DNA of 64,000 nucleotides from Brucepastera parasyntrophica (GTDB taxonomy: Bacteria; Spirochaetota; Spirochaetia; Treponematales; Treponemataceae), in contig NZ_CP084606.1 in assembly GCF_022376835.1 (NCBI RefSeq), positions 372,001 to 436,000 of the forward strand, given 5' to 3'. The translations under genes were made by a program, and so were the position numbers. Every line of letters starts with the position of its first letter. Positions within the stretch are counted from its first letter, which is position 1. The notes under the pieces are model-generated. The model saw nothing but the letters and a program-made list of their open reading frames with translations, did not search any database and was not told the DNA's origin. Positions 33,380 to 42,808 of the stretch are shown in pieces.

Positions 33380-34336
33380 AATCCAACCCACGCGCTCGCA
33401 CGGAGCGCGACATAGTTTTTTGCGTGGAGAGGCGTCAGATGATGAGTTTCAATCCACGCGCTCGCACGGAGCGCGACGCGGAGACCGGAACAGTGGAGAC
33501 CGGAACAGTGGAGTTTCAATCCACGCGCTCGCACGGAGCGCGACTCTATGTAAATGATTTTTTTACAGCCGATATGCTGTTTCAATCCACGCGCTCGCAC
33601 GGAGCGCGACCAGATCCATTTTTCACGGTCGTGGCAATGGATGAGGTTTCAATCCACGCGCTCGCACGGAGCGCGACTGGCTTCCCTGGCAAGGTCCTGC
33701 TGTTTTTTTACTGTTTCAATCCACGCGCTCGCACGGAGCGCGACGTAATAGGAGCCGCCGGGGCGCTTCCTGGGTTTGTTTCAATCCACGCGCTCGCACG
33801 GAGCGCGACACAGGAAGCACAAATCTTGAACGGTCAATTGCGTTTCAATCCACGCGCTCGCACGGAGCGCGACATATTACCCTGCCGGAAGAATGGTGCT
33901 ATTCCAGGTTTCAATCCACGCGCTCGCACGGAGCGCGACGTTTTCCCGTTTTCTTATCGACAACAAGTTTTTTGTTTCAATCCACGCGCTCGCACGGAGC
34001 GCGACTACATACAGGCAATCCGGTTTTATACTGGCGATGTTTCAATCCACGCGCTCGCACGGAGCGCGACTTTACCACCCGTTTCATGGTCTACTCCTTT
34101 TTTGGTTTCAATCCACGCGCTCGCACGGAGCGCGACACAGGCAAGCGCATAGTCAATGTCTGTTTATTTTGTTTCAATCCACGCGCTCGCACGGAGCGCG
34201 ACCTTCATGAGCCTCGCGTCGATAAATTGTGTAATCATGTTTCAATCCACGCGCTCGCACGGAGCGCGACGCCCATGCCGTATGAATCGGTTCCGGGCTT
34301 AATAGTTTCAATCCACGCGCTCGCACGGAGCGCGAC
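33380..34336 (-). CRISPR. Type I-C CRISPR array, 15 repeats and 14 spacers
   Basis: The 32-nt repeat has palindromic arms CGCGCTC/GAGCGCG and, read on the minus strand, ends in GCGTGGATTGAAAC, the usual I-C 3' handle. Repeats begin at 33380, 33446, 33513, 33579, 33646, 33713, 33778, 33842, 33908, 33974, 34039, 34105, 34171, 34239 and 34305. Spacers are 32-36 nt. Fourteen repeats are identical. The one at 33380-33411 differs at four bases in its handle end and marks the old, leader-distal end. The leader side is therefore at 34336, next to cas2, and transcription is leftward, the same as the cas genes. One spacer (33478-33512) contains a 15-nt tandem duplication. Confidence 0.97.
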
Positions 34337-34565: not shown

Positions 34566-34856
34566 CTAGATAATCAGAGGACTGTCGACATCATATCCAG
34601 GCTTTGCACCAATATGCTCAACCCGGCGTTTATAATTCGCGCCGAGATAATAATAACGCAGACTGTCTGTTTTGCCGTCAATAATTGCTTCGAGCCTGTT
34701 TTTCAACTGTACCCACTGAGCCGGATCAACAACACATTCAAACACCGAATACTGTACCCGCTGGCCGTAATTGGTGCAGGCCTTCGCCACATGTCGCAGC
34801 CGTTTCGCTCCGCCCGGACTCGTAACCATCACATCATAGCTCACAAGAACCATCAT
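34566..34856 (-). CDS. cas2: CRISPR-associated endonuclease Cas2
   Basis: A 96-aa protein with the ferredoxin-like core and the N-terminal VLVSYDV strand bearing the conserved Asp. QRVQYSVFECVV follows in the middle, as in type I-C Cas2. With Cas1 it forms the integrase that inserts new spacers at the leader end. It is the last cas gene, 6 nt after cas1, and precedes the array leader. Length and motifs are normal. Confidence 0.95.
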   Translation of the reverse strand: MMVLVSYDVMVTSPGGAKRLRHVAKACTNYGQRVQYSVFECVVDPAQWVQLKNRLEAIIDGKTDSLRYYYLGANYKRRVEHIGAKPGYDVDSPLII

Positions 34857-34862
34857 CGTCCG

Positions 34863-35894
34863 CTACCTCCAGAAAAACGGCGGATATCCGTCGATATCAC
34901 CACGGATATGCCGGGCAAGCAAATTTGCCTGAACAAAAAACAGGAGTCCGATTTTGACAGTTTCCTCGATATACGGATGCAGAACTTCATCCTGTTTACG
35001 GTTCTGATATTCGGTGAGGACGGTTCTGCGTGCGCTGTCACTCATAGTCACCGCGCCATTCGCCGCCCGGCTGAAATCCTTTTTCCCAAGCTGACGACGG
35101 TTAATCAGTGATAATACCAGCCGGTCTGCAATTACCGGGCGAAACTCTTCCATCATGTCAAGTGCCAGCCCCGGCCGTCCCGGACGGTCACGGTGAAGAA
35201 AACCAACGGACGGGTCAAGCCCTACCGTTTCCAGCGCCGAACGCACATCATGGGTAAGAAGAGTATACACAAATGAAAGCAGGGCATTTACCTCATCCAA
35301 GGGAGGCCTCCGGCTTCTTCCGGTAAAAGCAAAATCATTCTTCTGGTCAATAATCAGATGATTAAACACCCTGAAATATTCCGCACCGGCATGGCCCTCA
35401 AAACCCCGTACCTCATCTGCATGTTTCGCGGAGGCGACCTGGTTCAGTATGCGTCCGATATGTTTGGACGCCGACTTCAACGCCTCCGCATCGGTCTTTT
35501 CTCCGTGATCGCGGGCAGTTCTGTTCAGCACTATACGACTATTGGCAAGTTTTCCGCTCACCATATTTGAAGCAATCGCCTTTGTCGCTTCAGCATCATC
35601 CGCCATCCGGTATTGCTGCCGGCGCAAAAGCACATTGCCGCTCACCGGCCCTCTGACTGAGGCCAGGAACTTTCCGTATTCGGTCAGGAATGAAATTGAC
35701 ACATCCCGTTCCGCACAGAACCCGAGAAGATATGGCGAACAAAGCACATTCCCAAAACAGACAATTCCGCCAATGGTGTGAATAGGCAATTGCAGGACTT
35801 TCTCCCGTTCCCGTTCGACAATCACCGTCTCACCATCCCGATGCAGGTACGAACCCTGGGAACTCACGTACAAGGTATTAAGCAGCTTCCTCAT
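34863..35894 (-). CDS. cas1: CRISPR-associated integrase Cas1, subtype I-C
   Basis: A 343-aa protein with N-terminal beta-sandwich (LLNTLYVSSQGSYLHRDGET) and helical catalytic domain. The metal-binding residues are found in the GFEGHAGAEYFRVF region (Glu), GFLHRDRPGRPGLALDMMEEFRP (His and Asp, given in part: GFLHRDRPGRP, LALDMMEEF). The NSRIVLNR and VNALLSFVYTLL segments are typical. It catalyses spacer integration together with Cas2, with Cas4 trimming PAM-containing prespacers in this subtype. It overlaps cas4 by 4 nt. Confidence 0.95.
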   Translation of the reverse strand: MRKLLNTLYVSSQGSYLHRDGETVIVEREREKVLQLPIHTIGGIVCFGNVLCSPYLLGFCAERDVSISFLTEYGKFLASVRGPVSGNVLLRRQQYRMADDAEATKAIASNMVSGKLANSRIVLNRTARDHGEKTDAEALKSASKHIGRILNQVASAKHADEVRGFEGHAGAEYFRVFNHLIIDQKNDFAFTGRSRRPPLDEVNALLSFVYTLLTHDVRSALETVGLDPSVGFLHRDRPGRPGLALDMMEEFRPVIADRLVLSLINRRQLGKKDFSRAANGAVTMSDSARRTVLTEYQNRKQDEVLHPYIEETVKIGLLFFVQANLLARHIRGDIDGYPPFFWR

Positions 35895-36604
35895 TCTTCA
35901 CTCCCGTATTCATCATCAATTTCATTAGCGGGCTCTTCGGGCTCTTCACATAATCTGTCTACATACCGAAGCTGTGCGCTGATATACCGGGAAACTTTTT
36001 TTCCGCCTGAACCCGCGTTCTGAGGCATACAAAGATCATACAGGGAACAGCTGTCACATTTTTTCTTTTCATATCGCGCTGAAGGAGTACGTCCGGATTC
36101 CCTCAGCTCCCTGATTCGTCCGATGAGGGCGTCGGTTTTCTCCCGCAAAGTACAATCGAGCGTCACATCCCGGCGTCGGTGTTCCTGCAGATAATAGAGC
36201 TGTCCTGACTCAACCGGAACCCCAAACATTTCCTCAAGGCACAACGCCTGGGCGCAGAGCTGGGCGCGGTCAACATCGCTCTCCTTTTTCCGCCCTCGCT
36301 TGAACTCCACCGGAGACACCTTCCGTACCGCACCGACCTCGTCAAACCATATTTCCACCAGATCACACTTTCCTGTCAACCCATACTCCAGAGAACGCAC
36401 AGCCATTCCGTATTCTTGACGGAACAACCTCCGCGATTCGTGGTGTTCAACATCGACCCGTTCATGCAGCACCTGTCCCTCGGCGGTAAAAAGGTTCTCC
36501 TCCCAGAGCTGTTCGAGATGAACGAGGGCATACCGCCGTTCACAATAAGTAACATGGGAAACAGCGGAAATAGGTATCAGATCATCTTCAGAATACATCT
36601 GCAT
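35891..36604 (-). CDS. cas4: CRISPR-associated exonuclease Cas4
   Basis: A 237-aa RecB-family nuclease with iron-sulfur Cys. One Cys lies near the N-terminus in VTYCERRYALVH. Three lie near the C-terminus in CDSCSLYDLC (about residues 190-200). Nuclease residues occur in GKCDLVEIW and SPVEFKRGR. In type I-C, Cas4 works with Cas1 to process prespacers and select the PAM. It begins 12 nt after cas3 ends and overlaps cas1 by 4 nt. Confidence 0.92.
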   Translation of the reverse strand: MQMYSEDDLIPISAVSHVTYCERRYALVHLEQLWEENLFTAEGQVLHERVDVEHHESRRLFRQEYGMAVRSLEYGLTGKCDLVEIWFDEVGAVRKVSPVEFKRGRKKESDVDRAQLCAQALCLEEMFGVPVESGQLYYLQEHRRRDVTLDCTLREKTDALIGRIRELRESGRTPSARYEKKKCDSCSLYDLCMPQNAGSGGKKVSRYISAQLRYVDRLCEEPEEPANEIDDEYGSEE

Positions 36605-36616
36605 GGCTCTCCATTA

Positions 36617-38812
36617 TTATACCACACATGCGCCGGGCTCAAAGGAGTTGAAGTTTTCTATCGGTAATATCCCTGCCATATAACCGATAAAATCATCATA
36701 CGGAAGATGCCATTCATATAAACCGTTCCGCAGCTCCGGCAGCCCGAGATAATCCGTTTTCGGTTTCCATACCTGAACCGAATTGAGCTGGATGTCCCGC
36801 CATGAAACTTTTTCATGTTTCTTTAACCTGGAAATAAGTTCCTTATCAGCAACTGCTATGCGGGTATCCGTATCGATAACCCTGAAATTAGCTTCAATAA
36901 ATTTAAAGCTGTGAACATTTTCCTGTTCGATAAGCTGCTTAAAAATCGACGAACTCCCCAACAGAATTATCTCTTCCATGATTGTATCGGTACACAACTC
37001 CGGTCTTATTTCTTTTCCGGAATCAAAATAACGGCGTAGTATTCCCGAGGCATGTTTAAATGCCGGATGCAGTTTGAGATTATCAACGGCAGCGATACAG
37101 AAAGACCATACTTCGGCATCCTGTACCCCTCCGTGCCGGTTTATCCGCCCAGCAAGTTGAAGAAGGGACATGAGGGAAGCCAATTCCCGGAAACCTGTTC
37201 TGAAAGACAAATCAACTCCCGCTTCCACACAGGAAGTCGCCACCAGAGTCCAGTCCGTATCATCGGAATCCAAAAGCCGGTCTTCTATGCGCTTCAGGAT
37301 TTTTTCCCGATCCTTCGGAGTCAGGGCCGTTGACAGGTGTTCAACTTTTTTACGACCAAAGGTCTTCGCGAAAAAGTCCGCCGCAACCGCCGCACTCTGT
37401 ACAGTATTGAGAATAAGCAACCGGGGTCCGGGGAAGGAAGTTACCCACTCCGCAAGTTCTTTTACCCTTTTCGGTTCCGGATGATAACGGTAGCGTACCC
37501 GCTGCACTTCATAAGCGGCAAGCTGATTCCGGAGGATATTGTCGGTAATTTCCGGGACCCTTCGTTTCGTTTCACTTATTTCATTTATTTCCCAGAAGCG
37601 GGTGAGCGACCCCGAGGCGAGTACCCAATAACAGCCCCACTCATCGGCATAACGCTGTATCCACCTCCAGGCAAGAGGCAGCAATTTTACCGGCAGCGCC
37701 GCGTGGGATTCATCAACAAAAACCGCGCTTCCGGGAAGCTGATGAAGCCGTCGAAGGGATGCCGGGGAATTGGCGGCAAGGGTCTCAAAGAAAGCGACCG
37801 CAGTAGTTACAATAATTGGAGCTTTCCATAAGGCCGTCAACTGCCGGGCATTCATACTCTGAAAATCAGCCCGATGGTGCAGCTCAGCCACCACCTGTTC
37901 AGGATTCTCACCGGGGAAAACCAGAGTTTCTCGGTATTTCTTAACCGACTGCCGGATGATATTCGTAAAAGGAAGAATAATAAAAATCCGGCGGAGGCCT
38001 CTTTTTTCAGCCTGGGCAAGCAAGTGAGCCATGACAGCCGTAGTCTTTCCTGACCCCACCGGACTGTCACAGGAATTGATTACCTCGCCGGTATCACTGT
38101 TACGGCAGGCATAATACATTTCAGTACGGAGCAGGGATCGTTCGTCTGTGTTGTTTCCAAAACCTGCAATATACTTATCAAGCCGGGCAAGCCGTTCCGC
38201 AGGCCGCAACGGAACAAGGGTATCCGGTTCGGCATATTCACCATAATGTATCGTCGTATCGGTGTGGTCCGCGTCGGCAAGGCATGAAAGGACAAGGCGA
38301 AGAAACAGGGATGCATCTCCGGAGGGAAGTACTCCCTTCTCTACGGGACAGTTCCGGAATTGTCCCTGATGAATTTCTACCAGACAGGGCAACACCGCGT
38401 TTACCTGTTCAAAAACCGTCTCGTCCCGAAAAGCTTTAGCGCCTTTTTTCCCTTCATCACAAAAATCGGGATATCCGGAATGGTGGGACTGTACCGCGAG
38501 GGCCGCAAACGAAATCCCCGACGGGTTTCCCAGAAGATACGCTGCCCCTGCGTCGGCATGGTGTACCGGCAGTTTTTTTGCCCTGACTTTGCCGGAAAGA
38601 ACCCGCTGATTCTCTCCATCCAGTTTCCCAAGGTCGTGCAACTCCGCCGCTGCCGCCACCGTATCGCAAAGCAACTTCCCGTCCCGGCGGGCATAAGGTA
38701 AAATCGCGGCGGCCGCTGCTTCCGACCGCCGCACCACCCCTGAAACATGATCAGCGTAGGTTTGGCCCCCAACACCCTTTTTCTCATCGGGACTGTGGGC
38801 ATAATATGTCAT
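36617..38812 (-). CDS. cas3: CRISPR-associated nuclease-helicase Cas3
   Basis: A 731-aa effector nuclease. The N-terminal HD domain has TYADH, AELHDLGKL, HHADAGAA and QSHHSGYPD (residues about 18-125). The helicase has Walker A SPVGSGKTTAVM (about residue 245), motif II VDESHAA, and motif VI QLAGRINRHG. It degrades DNA bound by the I-C Cascade. Its position between cas7 and cas4 differs from the usual I-C order, where cas3 comes first. Its 5' end overlaps cas7 by 4 nt, so it belongs to the same operon. Confidence 0.95.
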   Translation of the reverse strand: MTYYAHSPDEKKGVGGQTYADHVSGVVRRSEAAAAAILPYARRDGKLLCDTVAAAAELHDLGKLDGENQRVLSGKVRAKKLPVHHADAGAAYLLGNPSGISFAALAVQSHHSGYPDFCDEGKKGAKAFRDETVFEQVNAVLPCLVEIHQGQFRNCPVEKGVLPSGDASLFLRLVLSCLADADHTDTTIHYGEYAEPDTLVPLRPAERLARLDKYIAGFGNNTDERSLLRTEMYYACRNSDTGEVINSCDSPVGSGKTTAVMAHLLAQAEKRGLRRIFIILPFTNIIRQSVKKYRETLVFPGENPEQVVAELHHRADFQSMNARQLTALWKAPIIVTTAVAFFETLAANSPASLRRLHQLPGSAVFVDESHAALPVKLLPLAWRWIQRYADEWGCYWVLASGSLTRFWEINEISETKRRVPEITDNILRNQLAAYEVQRVRYRYHPEPKRVKELAEWVTSFPGPRLLILNTVQSAAVAADFFAKTFGRKKVEHLSTALTPKDREKILKRIEDRLLDSDDTDWTLVATSCVEAGVDLSFRTGFRELASLMSLLQLAGRINRHGGVQDAEVWSFCIAAVDNLKLHPAFKHASGILRRYFDSGKEIRPELCTDTIMEEIILLGSSSIFKQLIEQENVHSFKFIEANFRVIDTDTRIAVADKELISRLKKHEKVSWRDIQLNSVQVWKPKTDYLGLPELRNGLYEWHLPYDDFIGYMAGILPIENFNSFEPGACVV

Positions 38813-39693
38813 AGGGCCATTAAATCCACACAGGATCCAACCTTCGCCATAAGGTCCCCCGGTAAGACCGTCACATCCTCATAATCCTTCCAGGATACGG
38901 AAGGCTCGGCGGTGTCACCGATGCGTTTTGGAGTAAGGGCTTCAAAAAGGAGATAATCGGGGCAGCTACCAAGGACATTCTTGTGCTCAATGTACCAGGC
39001 GTGACGTATCCGTACATCGGGCCGGATGGCAGATTTTGTCTGATCATAAGCATAAGGGATGAGCCCTTTCAGCAGCTCGATATCCGCCGACGTACAGCCG
39101 GTTTTGCCTGCGTAATTCGGGTTGATGAAGAAGGGCATACAGTACACAGCGTGTTCAACAATCCGGTACGCCAGAGGCGCCATTCCCTGTTTTTTGTCCG
39201 CCTCGACGCCGGCTTTGTTCGTGTTCGTTTGACGCACAATACTTACCGGAGAAATAGAAACCCCCATCCCAAACTGGGCAACTCCGGTCTTGATAAAACC
39301 CTTGTCCGCCCCTGACTCCAGAAAGGTATTACCGAACAGGCGGGCATCCCAATATTTTTTTACAAAGGTACTGTTGAGAAATTTCCCCTGATCAAACTTC
39401 GAAACATCGTCGGACATTTCTTTTTGAATATCCCCACGAACCCTTCCTCGGGATTCCAGGATACGGTAATTTTCTGGGTCAAGTTTCAATTTCGCGCAGA
39501 GTTCTTGGAAAAGCGCGTTATCCCTGTCTTCAACAATATCCCGCAGTTTCCTTTTGAATGAAACAGGAGAAATTTCTCCCAGTCCGTTGGGCCGCTGCCG
39601 GGGATCGCTTTCCCGGTCGGGGTCTCCATTGGGATTTGAATTGACCGCCTCAATGACCAGTAGTCCTGTAGCGCGTTTGATTTCATCAGCCAT
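38809..39693 (-). CDS. cas7: Cascade backbone protein Cas7 (Csd2), subtype I-C
   Basis: A 294-aa RAMP protein. The N-terminal ATGLLVIEAVNSNPNGDPD and SPVSFKRKLRD segments are hallmark features of the Csd2/Csh2-type Cas7. Later parts include RLFGNTF and GVSISPVSIVRQTNTNKAG. It forms the crRNA-coating backbone of the interference complex. It sits directly after cas8c (8-nt overlap) and is followed by cas3 (4-nt overlap). Confidence 0.95.
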   Translation of the reverse strand: MADEIKRATGLLVIEAVNSNPNGDPDRESDPRQRPNGLGEISPVSFKRKLRDIVEDRDNALFQELCAKLKLDPENYRILESRGRVRGDIQKEMSDDVSKFDQGKFLNSTFVKKYWDARLFGNTFLESGADKGFIKTGVAQFGMGVSISPVSIVRQTNTNKAGVEADKKQGMAPLAYRIVEHAVYCMPFFINPNYAGKTGCTSADIELLKGLIPYAYDQTKSAIRPDVRIRHAWYIEHKNVLGSCPDYLLFEALTPKRIGDTAEPSVSWKDYEDVTVLPGDLMAKVGSCVDLMAL

Positions 39694-41833
39694 GATATTC
39701 CTCCGTAATTTTTTCTTCTTCTGTATTATTTACCGACCCTTCTGCCTTCGGTTTCTCACTTCTTGGAAGATCCGCAAGATACCCGATAAAGAGTTGCGCC
39801 TTTTCAAGATCGTCAAAACGTTTTGATGTAAAATCAGGGAGCTTTGCCGCCGTTTGGCTGTATACATTCAACAGCCATCCCACAAGTTTCCGGTTCTTCT
39901 CATTCTGCGGGGTAAATTGCTTTTCATTTCGTGTGTATTGCTTTGCCCACGAAATATACGGAACCATCCGCTTCCCCAGCTGGGCCATCACCTTATCCGG
40001 CATATCAAACGCGGCGGATAAAAGAGAAGCTCCCGCCAGCTGGGGCGGTACATTTCCGTCACGGACAACCTTACAGTAAAAGGCGTGAAGTTCATCAGAT
40101 ACTTTCAGTATCTGTCCGAACAGGTAGGGGATATTTTCCATATAGACCTCCTTATGGTACCCCTGTTTATACAGCAGCAGGCCGAAGAGGGGCATGAGTG
40201 AATTGACAATTTCCATATTGAAATTGTTTTTTAGCAGTTCCTGATTATGTTGAACAGAACCAAGATAGATAAGCAGTCCCGAAGTATTACAGAGCAGGGT
40301 GTTCAGGATATGGGCTTCCATTCCCAAAAGACTATCTTCAAAAAACAGCTCCACACCCTGGTAGTACTTTATTCGTTTCACCTCTCCGGAAGAAGATCCA
40401 TCCTGCTTCCATATTCTGTTACAGATTGAAGCGATCCTCAGGGGCATGGGCGTTTTTGATTCAGTAAAGCCGGGCTTCCCCTCCTCCTTATTCCATACTC
40501 TGAATCGTACCCGTGGGATATTGGCACAGCCCTTCTGCCATTCTTCTGCCGCGGCTATCAGCCTCTCGGCGCTGTAATTCCTGTTGAATACAATCTTCCT
40601 CCGGGCAGTGTCCATCTTCCTGATGGCAAAAACCTGAATATCAATTTCCTCCCGCCGGGTTCCCTGTAATCTTGTCAAAGCGCTGATCACATCGTCAGCA
40701 CAGCTTTCAAAGGTACCGGTGTTTGCCGTCTTAAGATCCTGTCCAGCGCCGGCACCGAGCAGGGCGGTCAGCATAACCGGCGCGTCGGGACGTTTTGAAG
40801 GATAAGCGAAAACCACCTCATCGCCGTCCGCGTTGCCCCAGGTCTTGCCCTGCCGGGAAGAATCGCTGAGCCACTCAAGAGCGCCCTTCATCCTGGCCCG
40901 GGTTTCCCTGGCTACAGGATAGGAAGCCCCTTCAATGAGATTATAGCGGTACTGGCAGAGGTGATCTTTAAACATGGAACGGAGAATCACCTTCGGAATT
41001 CCCCGGAGGTTTACACTGGGCAAGGGCTCGTCGATGGGAGTATAGGCAATTCCAAAGGCATCAACCATTTCAGCCGGAGCTTCCCAAGTCTGTCCACTCA
41101 GCAGGATATCATTCATCCAGTTCATGCTTTTTTCGTGGGCAACAGGATACCGAAAACACTGCCAGTCGGCAAGATCAAAAATGACGGAAACATCCTTCCC
41201 GGCGCTTCCCCCGAAAAGGAGACGTAACGCCATTCCGGCATCACCGCCTTTTTCGAGCTGAGTAAAAAGATACGTTTCAAGGACATCTTTCAGGACAGTC
41301 TTTGTTTTATCCCCGCTATTCCGTCCGCTTATTTCGAACCGGGAGAGGAGATCGATTAATTCCGTTACCGCGTTTTCATTCTGCACATCTGCGGCATTCC
41401 CGGTTTTTTCAAGAAACGCGACGGGAAGTTTATGCAGACAGTTGTCCAATTTTTTCAGGACCGTCCCCGTCCAGTTGTCCGTCTCCGCAGTACACCATTG
41501 TCGCACAAGGCTGACATCAACCGCCTCTTTCCCCCGTAACCAGCTATCCAGTTTTCCTTTTTGCTCGTCCGAATCAGCCCGGTATAGCGGTGGACAGTTA
41601 AAGGCGGGAAAAGACATCCCGTTACTGGTTTCCCATTTACGCAGAAAAAATGAATGATCTTCATCGGTGATTATAGTTATTTCGGTAATCCGGAGATCAC
41701 TGCCTATACATATCCGCAGGCAGGGAGATTTAATGCTCACCCTTGGAAGAGGCTTGAATTCCCGCTGCCATTTCTTGGGGTTAATCTTACTTTTTGTGAG
41801 AGCTTCGGAAACAGCGTACAATTCATTAATCAT
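39686..41833 (-). CDS. cas8c: Cascade large subunit Cas8c (Csd1)
   Basis: A 715-aa large subunit of subtype I-C. Features matching Csd1 are the start MINELYAVSEAL, FPAFNCPPLYRADSDEQKGK, the CLHKLPVAF region, NTGTFESCADDVISALTRL and the C-terminal helical part. It recognises the PAM and, in many I-C systems, an internal start supplies the small subunit (Cas11c). I did not try to place that start. The start at 41833 is chosen because AGGAGG lies 8 nt upstream; a longer frame lacks such a site. It overlaps cas5 by 8 nt and cas7 by 8 nt. Confidence 0.92.
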   Translation of the reverse strand: MINELYAVSEALTKSKINPKKWQREFKPLPRVSIKSPCLRICIGSDLRITEITIITDEDHSFFLRKWETSNGMSFPAFNCPPLYRADSDEQKGKLDSWLRGKEAVDVSLVRQWCTAETDNWTGTVLKKLDNCLHKLPVAFLEKTGNAADVQNENAVTELIDLLSRFEISGRNSGDKTKTVLKDVLETYLFTQLEKGGDAGMALRLLFGGSAGKDVSVIFDLADWQCFRYPVAHEKSMNWMNDILLSGQTWEAPAEMVDAFGIAYTPIDEPLPSVNLRGIPKVILRSMFKDHLCQYRYNLIEGASYPVARETRARMKGALEWLSDSSRQGKTWGNADGDEVVFAYPSKRPDAPVMLTALLGAGAGQDLKTANTGTFESCADDVISALTRLQGTRREEIDIQVFAIRKMDTARRKIVFNRNYSAERLIAAAEEWQKGCANIPRVRFRVWNKEEGKPGFTESKTPMPLRIASICNRIWKQDGSSSGEVKRIKYYQGVELFFEDSLLGMEAHILNTLLCNTSGLLIYLGSVQHNQELLKNNFNMEIVNSLMPLFGLLLYKQGYHKEVYMENIPYLFGQILKVSDELHAFYCKVVRDGNVPPQLAGASLLSAAFDMPDKVMAQLGKRMVPYISWAKQYTRNEKQFTPQNEKNRKLVGWLLNVYSQTAAKLPDFTSKRFDDLEKAQLFIGYLADLPRSEKPKAEGSVNNTEEEKITEEYHG

Positions 41834-42494
41834 CTTCCACCCTCCTTTCCGGGAAAACCAGAATCCCGTTTTCAATCCGCACGTTCTGGTCATATACAAA
41901 GGAAACCGGCGAACTATATCCTCGCGAAAAAACTTCCCTCAGGAGCGAAGGGATGGTAAAATTCAATTCACCCTGAACCTTCGTGTTTTCCCGAAAAGGT
42001 CCGAAGTATGAGGGGGTAAACTCCTTCCAGCCGAGGCAGGGAACTGCATGACACTGCCCCCGTTTGAGCCGGCGTTCGAATATGGCCTGATAAGCATGGC
42101 CCGGGGATGTTGTCTTTTGGTCCCAGCTTAAAGTGGCTTCGGAAACACCTGCCTTTTCTCTGTTCGGCATGGCCAGCGCATACAGCCGGTAGCACACATC
42201 AATCATAACCGTTGCCAATAACTGATAAGCATTTCCTTTCTTAACGGATTCCGCTTTTCTTAATGGGCCTCCGTAATTTGTGTAGTATGAATGAAATTGC
42301 AGGGGAGCACAGATTTCAACCTTTACCGGCACTATGGTTACCGCAGGTCCCCATAAAACCGACTCAAAAATCCCCTTCACCGCGGAATATGTCGGTACGG
42401 AAAAACTGACCGGGGAGTCGCCAGTATCCGGGCGGGTCCACATGGCCGTATTCCCGGCGATTTCCATCTGGACAGGATAGGCATTTTTTATCAT
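41826..42494 (-). CDS. cas5: crRNA-processing Cascade subunit Cas5c (Cas5d)
   Basis: A 222-aa RAMP protein. In type I-C systems it both cuts pre-crRNA at the repeat hairpin and caps the crRNA 5' handle, since no Cas6 is present. Typical features are NAYPVQMEIAGNTAMWTRPD, VPTYSAVKGIFESVLWGP with the conserved Tyr/Lys region, and the glycine-rich PCLGWKEF. It is the first gene of the cas operon, with AAGGAGG 4 nt before the ATG and a consensus promoter upstream that overlaps the match to the repeat-derived RNA described at 42548-42624. Confidence 0.93.
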   Translation of the reverse strand: MIKNAYPVQMEIAGNTAMWTRPDTGDSPVSFSVPTYSAVKGIFESVLWGPAVTIVPVKVEICAPLQFHSYYTNYGGPLRKAESVKKGNAYQLLATVMIDVCYRLYALAMPNREKAGVSEATLSWDQKTTSPGHAYQAIFERRLKRGQCHAVPCLGWKEFTPSYFGPFRENTKVQGELNFTIPSLLREVFSRGYSSPVSFVYDQNVRIENGILVFPERRVEDD

Positions 42495-42508: not shown

Positions 42509-42526
42509 TTACAATTAATATTACAT
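42509..42526 (-). promoter_or_regulatory. Putative target site of the CRISPR-repeat-derived RNA in the cas promoter
   Basis: Minus strand ATGTAATATTAATTGTAA matches the guide ATGTATTATTAGTGATAA in 14 of 18 positions, with mismatches at 6, 12, 14 and 15 only. The three bases 5' of it are GTC, sharing TC with the type I-C PAM TTC. Binding of Cascade here would cover the -10 box and start site. Confidence 0.6.
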
Positions 42527-42546
42527 GACGATTTATTATCTGTCAA
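42518..42546 (-). promoter_or_regulatory. cas operon promoter
   Basis: Minus strand: perfect TTGACA (42541-42546), 17-nt spacer, TAATAT (42518-42523), predicted start near 42511, then AAGGAGG (42499-42505) and the cas5 ATG at 42494. The -10 box lies inside the segment matching the spacer-like part of the upstream RNA. Confidence 0.8.
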
Positions 42547-42547
42547 C

Positions 42548-42575
42548 AAAAAACACCTGTAAACAGGTGTTTTTC
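42548..42575 (-). terminator. Terminator between the crRNA-like RNA and the cas promoter
   Basis: Minus strand ACACCTG, loop TTTA, CAGGTGT, then a run of six T. Mirrored A and T runs make it work in both directions. It directly abuts the cas -35 box (42541-42546), so cas transcription must start from its own promoter. Confidence 0.85.
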
Positions 42576-42624
42576 TTATTTATCACTAATAATACATGTT
42601 TCAATCCACGCCCGAACGGACGAC
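42548..42624 (-). ncRNA. CreR-like crRNA-type regulatory RNA upstream of cas5
   Basis: A single repeat-like element occupies 42598-42624. Its last 14 bases, GCGTGGATTGAAAC, equal the array repeat handle. Its hairpin is shortened by five bases but still pairs (CGTCC with GGGCG, one G-U). A spacer-like stretch follows from 42597 and an intrinsic terminator ends the unit near 42548, giving an RNA of about 77 nt. A promoter places the start at the first base of the repeat. The guide matches the cas promoter in register. Known CreR RNAs use partly complementary guides so that Cascade binds without cutting and represses cas genes. No toxin gene is visible, so autoregulation rather than an addiction module is inferred. 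Confidence 0.72.
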
Positions 42625-42630
42625 AGATAA

Positions 42631-42659
42631 AATATACCCTGTCGTTTACAGATATACAA
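42631..42659 (-). promoter_or_regulatory. Promoter of the crRNA-like RNA
   Basis: Minus strand TTGTAT (42654-42659), 17-nt spacer, TATATT (42631-42636), then 6 nt to the repeat at 42624. The predicted start is the first G of the repeat. The -35 is weak (3 of 6), the -10 good (5 of 6). Confidence 0.55.
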
Positions 42660-42808
42660 TATTCCAAGAGGTTAAATTTCTTTCCGCTTTCATTTTTCCG
42701 TACATGTGCAATGTATTTCATCATTAATCCTGTTTTTTTATTACTGAATATTATACTATGTGTTTTACAAATAAAGTAATTTTTTATTCAAAATAACAAC
42801 AAATTTCT

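Follow-up and report, generated by a model that had tools for sequence, protein, structure and literature searches.

The window analysed here is a stretch of 64,000 nucleotides from the genome of Brucepastera parasyntrophica (NCBI RefSeq assembly GCF_022376835.1, contig NZ_CP084606.1, positions 372,001 to 436,000; positions below are those of the window). Its minus strand carries a complete type I-C locus of clustered regularly interspaced short palindromic repeats (CRISPR), in the order cas5c-cas8c-cas7c-cas3c-cas4c-cas1c-cas2c and followed by the repeat array. Between cas5 and a penicillin-binding-protein gene lies a single degenerate repeat with a guide-like stretch and a terminator, here referred to as creR. 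A first-pass annotation had read it as a type I-C relative of the CreRs, CRISPR RNA (crRNA)-like autorepressors of cas genes.

The locus and its isolated repeat

The operon encodes Cas8c, Cas5c and Cas7c and is without Cas6, for which no leftover open reading frame (ORF) in the operon could be assigned, as judged by eye. PADLOC models recognized Cas8c (1.8e-177), Cas5c (1.1e-26) and Cas7c (8e-34), as well as Cas3c, Cas4c, Cas1c and Cas2c, while the Cas7 model shared by types I-B and I-C outscores Cas7c on the window protein (4.6e-53 vs 8e-34). Since Cas5 and Cas7 score under the NCBIfam I-C cut-offs and Cas8 has no match in NCBIfam or Pfam, the locus belongs to a divergent I-C branch, in which cas3 is placed after cas7. 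Comparison with solved structures showed that Cas5 resembles known I-C Cas5 chains and gave nothing credible for Cas8.

The degenerate repeat lies at the cas locus but outside the array and ends 104 nt short of cas5 (Table 1). The 5' handle of a crRNA is 11 nt long, and a search of the 3.24-Mb genome for the handle GCGTGGATTGAAAC with at most one mismatch found 15 sites, namely 14 in the array and this one, although more degenerate copies would be missed by such a search. The isolated, shortened repeat reported by the first-pass annotation is thus the sole near-exact handle outside the array, and the intrinsic terminator and the cas promoter were likewise recovered where it had placed them. 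The guide ATGTATTATTAGTGATAAATAAG begins at the first base past the handle. At gathering scores, Rfam matched nothing in the whole window.

Table 1. Features of the type I-C locus and of the element upstream of cas5 (window positions).
Feature	Position	Strand	Remarks
CRISPR array	33446..34336	-	14 perfect 32-nt repeats, spacers 32-36 nt
cas8c, cas7c, cas3c, cas4c, cas1c, cas2c	34566..41836	-	all open frames
cas5c	41826..42494	-	first operon gene; expected repeat-processing nuclease
Guide-matching site	42510..42526	-	guide positions 1-17, over the -10 box
cas promoter TTGACA-17-TAATAT	42518..42546	-	directly after the terminator
Intrinsic terminator hairpin with U run	42548..42574	-	11-bp stem 42574-42549, z -5.4
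Guide ATGTATTATTAG	42575..42597	-	then 11 further bases before the terminator stem
Degenerate CRISPR repeat GTCGTCCGTTCGGGCGTGGATTGAAAC	42598..42624	-	27 nt vs 32 nt in the array
Predicted 5' handle TGGATTGAAAC	42608-42598	-	within the degenerate repeat
Repeat hairpin	42622-42609	-	5 bp kept, -6.3 kcal/mol
Possible creR promoter TTGTAT-17-TATATT	42631..42659	-	by eye; start would be near 42624

Guide and cas promoter in the window and in related loci

The first-pass annotation had noted that, from the base after the handle onwards, the guide matches the cas promoter over its -10 box, and this holds: ATGTATTATTAG and the promoter sequence ATGTAATATTAA mismatch only at positions 6 and 12 within the first 12, and agree at 14/18 overall. 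With scoring restricted to guide positions 1-5 and 7-11, the site in the promoter reaches 10/10. The RNA would pair with the plus strand, which is the template strand of cas5. To estimate chance, we used permuted guides, local-Markov guides and AT-rich random guides (60,000 trials each) against either strand from the terminator to cas5. A 10/10 match arose in 0.09%, 0.07% and 0.17% of trials, respectively (7e-4 to 1.7e-3), and a 10/10 match flanked by TC, in the place of the protospacer adjacent motif (PAM), in 0.012%, 0.003% and 0.007% (3e-5 to 1.2e-4); the match exceeds chance. Elsewhere in the 64 kb no site reaches 10/10, the guide itself excepted. Genome-wide, the pattern TCATGTANTATTA has two sites, the cas promoter and the start of an ssb gene; the latter (G000:C1:220577-220589) is the genome's only other TC-flanked 10/10 seed site and has 15 nt in common with the cas promoter site. 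It is possibly a second target or a product of chance; the reversed control pattern is also present once, so chance may suffice.

Related I-C loci were assembled in a first sample of 68, comprising 66 from a Cas7-alignment search of genome contigs, one viral contig and the window, of which 61 were usable; L045, L051, L053, L057, L069, L079 and L089 were set aside because their cas5 start was absent or lay too close to an end. An isolated handle was defined as a sequence that differs from GTGGATTGAAA at no more than one position, lies no further than 600 nt upstream of cas5 and has no neighbour within 95 nt. Handles were picked blind to their guides, and targets were sought outside the element itself. 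Such a handle stands upstream of cas5 in 18/61 loci, which form 13 or 14 groups by similarity of their upstream DNA. At the exact register, 17 of the 18 guides match the DNA upstream of their own cas genes at 9/10 or better with the gap at position 6 (10/10 in 12/18), which supports the CreR-like reading, and 15 have at least 9/10 together with TC. The sole miss, L059 (7/10), was kept in all register and swap counts. A looser handle search brought in L060 (two mismatches) and found 14 loci, compared with a mean of 0.67 over 30 scrambled handles.

The match depends on register and on locus. When the guide start was shifted from -12 to +18, 10/10 was seen solely at +6 (7/18), +7 (one locus) and +8 (one locus), the first of these being expected when pairing continues with a gap at every sixth base, and at least 9/10 with TC in at most 1/18. 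Guides swapped among loci gave 10/10 in 5/306 and at least 9/10 in 34/306 combinations, and, with TC, in 2/306 and 4/306.

A position-wise profile was taken over 18 loci (L060 included, L059 left out), positions 6 and 12-30 having played no part in the choice of target. Matches number 18 at each of positions 1-5 and 5 at position 6; 17, 16, 16, 18 and 18 at positions 7-11 and 1 at position 12; 17, 12, 14, 14 and 11 at positions 13-17 and 5 at position 18, with background beyond. Mismatches therefore concentrate at 6, 12 and 18. The type I complex leaves every sixth guide base unpaired, and at the sequence level the profile is the one predicted for such a complex, with complementarity ending near position 17. 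The tally of PAMs from this profile is biased because sites flanked by TTC or TC were favoured when targets were chosen; in the unbiased best-score tally, the 18 handles have TTC in 12 cases, GTC in two (the window and L080) and four other motifs once each.

A second sample was drawn from 391 genomes of the class of G402, in which 62 Cas5c matches fell in 61 genomes. Upstream stretches numbered 59, after G402 (L055 of the first sample), G589 and G418 were left out; the isolation distance was 150 nt and targets lay within 600 nt. Among 25 isolated handles, 16 have at least 9/10 with TTC, 13 of them 10/10. These comprise all ten exact handles and 6/15 of those with one mismatch; the other nine reach just 5 or 6 of 10 with TTC, and one of them (L157) has 9/10 without TTC. 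By comparison, 12 scrambled handles gave 84 isolated hits, of which none matched. The same periodicity was found over the 16 loci, with matches of 16, 16, 16, 15 and 16 at positions 1-5 and 5 at position 6; 16, 16, 14, 16 and 16 at 7-11 and 4 at 12; and 15, 15, 15, 13 and 10 at 13-17 and 5 at 18. One locus (L185) repeats L064 of the first sample, so 15 of the 16 are new, and 16/59 is a lower bound since several stretches (down to 591 bases) stop before the operon start. Cas3 lies upstream of cas5 in 14/16 loci, with the element before cas3 in five (L128, L135, L136, L151, L162) and between cas3 and cas5 in nine, where it would brake Cascade and not Cas3.

Guide and target also change together. 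Drift of the two without covariation would have spoken against a functional pairing, and in four loci homologous over the region (L050, L054, L055, L056) both differ between loci and co-change. In G011, from the family of the window genome, a homologous element with a pseudo-repeat also of 27 nt stands directly before an operon starting Cas3c-Cas5c, and its guide and promoter site both depart from those of the window at positions 3, 5, 8 and 9 in the same way. In G856, from the same order, the element precedes a Cas3-like start and matches the -10 region at 9/10 with TTA in the PAM place.

A candidate autorepressor and its alternatives

Taken together, these comparisons make it very probable that the element is a type I-C CreR. 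A short RNA would run from the degenerate repeat to the terminator, whose hairpin would set its 3' end. Cas5c would cleave this RNA beneath the repeat hairpin, yielding the usual 5' handle; in type I-C it is Cas5, not Cas6, that processes the repeat, according to the available text of PMC10013973. Within Cascade, guide positions 1-5 and 7-11, together with a few further ones, would pair with the template strand at the cas5 promoter. Cascade lying on the -10 box and the start site would then block RNA polymerase, while the complementarity would be too short for cutting by Cas3. Cascade would in this way repress its own operon, and the repression would be lifted once crRNAs or anti-CRISPRs draw Cascade away. 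That such an RNA senses free Cascade or a shortage of crRNAs, as the first-pass annotation proposed, is carried over from reviews on CreRs of other subtypes and may apply here too.

Several observations weigh against this interpretation. The PAM place of the window target holds GTC (42529-42527) and not TTC, and guide positions 14-17 match at only 2/4. The first-pass annotation held that the repeat hairpin keeps pairing despite its deletion, and five base pairs are indeed kept (7 bp and -12.2 kcal/mol in the array repeat), but by itself the hairpin is not unusually stable, with z -0.99 and 30/200 shuffles equally good. Across loci the pseudo-repeats often fold below the handle, with stem sequences that differ from those of the array, and z falls below -1 in just 12/19. 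A promoter of creR's own, also proposed at first, is weakly supported: it was picked by eye and is missing from the four promoter-like sites of a strict scan, although its TATATTTT stretch is conserved in the homologous G011 element. The G011 guide matches its promoter at just 8/10 (10 and 11 mismatch), and two other nearby sites also reach 8/10, so that this match alone is not significant. Without the PAM rule, at least 9/10 is often reached by chance in AT-rich DNA, as seen in the swaps and at shifted starts (8/18 at -1, 8/18 at +1, 12/18 at +6). Finally, the distribution is patchy: 43/61 loci have no isolated handle, including L028 and L029, the nearest by Cas7, where the looser search still found no element.

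Some of the same points would suit a decayed remnant of an array whose promoter match is a chance event. A single degenerate repeat in AT-rich intergenic DNA, an unusual PAM and the many I-C loci without an element are all what a remnant would give. However, chance in the window alone is about 1e-3 or less, the register and the period of six recur at 17/18 handles of the first sample and 16/25 of the second, and a remnant would not retain handle, guide, terminator and promoter match jointly. With the controls, we regard a remnant as unlikely.

Still less probable is that the element acts as the CreA of a CreTA pair; Cascade would then be steered to a small-toxin promoter, either in place of the cas genes or in addition to them. 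The RNA design is alike (available text of PMC8501985 and PMC9458426), the window has a small ORF overlapping creR, and two loci have guide targets far upstream of cas5 (near -250 in L042 and near -192 in L044) that leave room for another transcript. In the window, by contrast, the -10 box lies about 25 nt before the cas5 start, an interval too short for an ORF, and the small ORF is upstream of the cas promoter and resembles a truncated Cas3 start. In L042 and L044 another transcript, perhaps CreT-like, could lie between target and cas5; L044 has an apparent second promoter near cas5, found by eye.

We give little credence to a Racr-type solitary repeat, a decoy that ties up Cas proteins: such a repeat with a possible promoter would look similar and an I-C Racr has been tested, but Racrs are described from viral genomes and not in association with cas genes (available text of PMC10651486), and here the neighbours are a penicillin-binding-protein gene and cas5, and the guide matches the cas promoter. 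Nor is a common site for an ordinary DNA-binding regulator, or a mere sharing of -10-like stretches (TATTAT in the guide, TAATAT in the promoter) with no RNA involved, any more credible, as in many loci the match begins directly past the handle and leaves out each sixth base, and some guides (L037, L042, L044) are not -10-like.

The surroundings of creR hint at its origin. The codons just upstream of it, in the window and in G011, resemble a Cas3 start (M-YIAHVR); similar starts are present in long ORFs of G851, G1063 and G889, the last matching Cas3c at 3.2e-152. Hence creR seems to lie within the truncated 5' part of a former cas3 gene, and the operons that follow it differ in gene order. 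A 62-aa ORF (42539-42724, minus strand; also L187 and L192) runs through creR and has the Cas3-N-terminus-like start in common with G011. Nothing in Pfam or PADLOC matches it, its Cas3 likeness being derived from genome hits; its peptide was found in no plasmid and its alignment in no viral contig. Between the window and G011, nonsynonymous (dN) and synonymous (dS) divergence are 0.28 and 1.59 over 32 codons, a very short comparison near saturation, which hints at constraint at the protein level; the ORF may be either a relic or a small kept peptide.

Element carriers make up over a quarter of the examined loci, spirochaetal and clostridial ones among others; in them cas3 comes first, follows cas7 or is separated from cas5 by the element. 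A broader reading, for and against which we see equal grounds, is that type I-C systems commonly have RNA-guided self-repression built in, without need of Cas6, and that repeat, guide and promoter form a co-evolving module fit for different I-C operons, as in the window and G011. The apparent layout of some loci, L080 being the example, belongs to this reading. In L080 creR and cas5 are apparently under one promoter with no clear terminator between, and the PAM is GTC as in the window. The element seems to form part of the 5' leader of the cas message and to be aimed at the common promoter; in such a layout Cascade would obtain its repressor by cleaving the mRNA that encodes it.

Other features of these loci were noted. 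In L023 (5211-6167; L077), a relative whose Cas7 is 69% identical, a gene for a regulator with WYL/WCX domains stands directly before cas5, where creR would be, and is possibly a protein alternative for cas control. A degenerate end copy of the array repeat lies near 33380, and the spacer at 33478-33512 contains two tandem copies of CCACTGTTCCGGTCT, an internal direct repeat. No protospacers of the array were found in a phage collection, and the PAM is therefore not learnable from the spacers. A plasmid search with Cas5 returned 42 records, every one below 60% identity, and a search of viral contigs with Cas7 a single distant locus.

Relation to known systems

Type I-C is a widespread CRISPR subtype. 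If the reading is true, Cascade-dependent brakes would explain low I-C expression and offer a possible answer to anti-CRISPRs, the elements would supply natural repression guides for I-C tools, and the period-6 signature would be usable to find such regulators in other type I systems.

The type II tracr-L is an autorepressor with limited complementarity that acts on its own cas promoter; it is Cas9-based and its RNA is unrelated to creR. Francisella scaRNA resembles creR as a natural RNA whose limited complementarity turns a Cas effector into a repressor, but it is also Cas9-based with an unrelated RNA (available text of PMC9458426). With Racrs the element has in common a solitary degenerate repeat as the predicted binding site of Cas proteins, and I-C Racrs are known, yet they are virus-encoded decoys for which the available text of PMC10651486 does not describe a promoter-matching guide.

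CreRs resemble crRNAs, with which they compete, and direct Cascade or Cas12a to the promoter of the cas genes (available parts of PMC12737573, PMC13131331, PMC12948488). The element shares with them a predicted crRNA-like RNA, a solitary or mini CRISPR beside cas genes and a partial match to the cas promoter (PMC13131331, PMC12737573). Unlike the I-B, I-E and V-A CreRs named in the accessible review text (PMC13131331), it belongs to type I-C, has GTC in the PAM place and consists of a single repeat with a terminator. Our literature search, which did not cover the primary CreR paper, turned up no report of an I-C CreR; creR would be a variant beyond the subtypes named in reviews.

Another close parallel in design is CreA of type I-B CreTA, as far as the available text goes. 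In CreA RNAs, pairing involves positions 1-5 and 7-11 next to a TTC, and that of Haloarcula hispanica carries a single pseudo-repeat and a terminator rich in T (PMC8501985, PMC9458426); in the same organism, spacers of at most 24 nt repress without interference (PMC10989794). CreA represses an RNA toxin gene, whereas the promoter matched in the window leads straight into cas5 (PMC8501985, PMC9458426 for CreA). In its sequence the window element fits every feature of the described CreR and CreA mechanism except the PAM.
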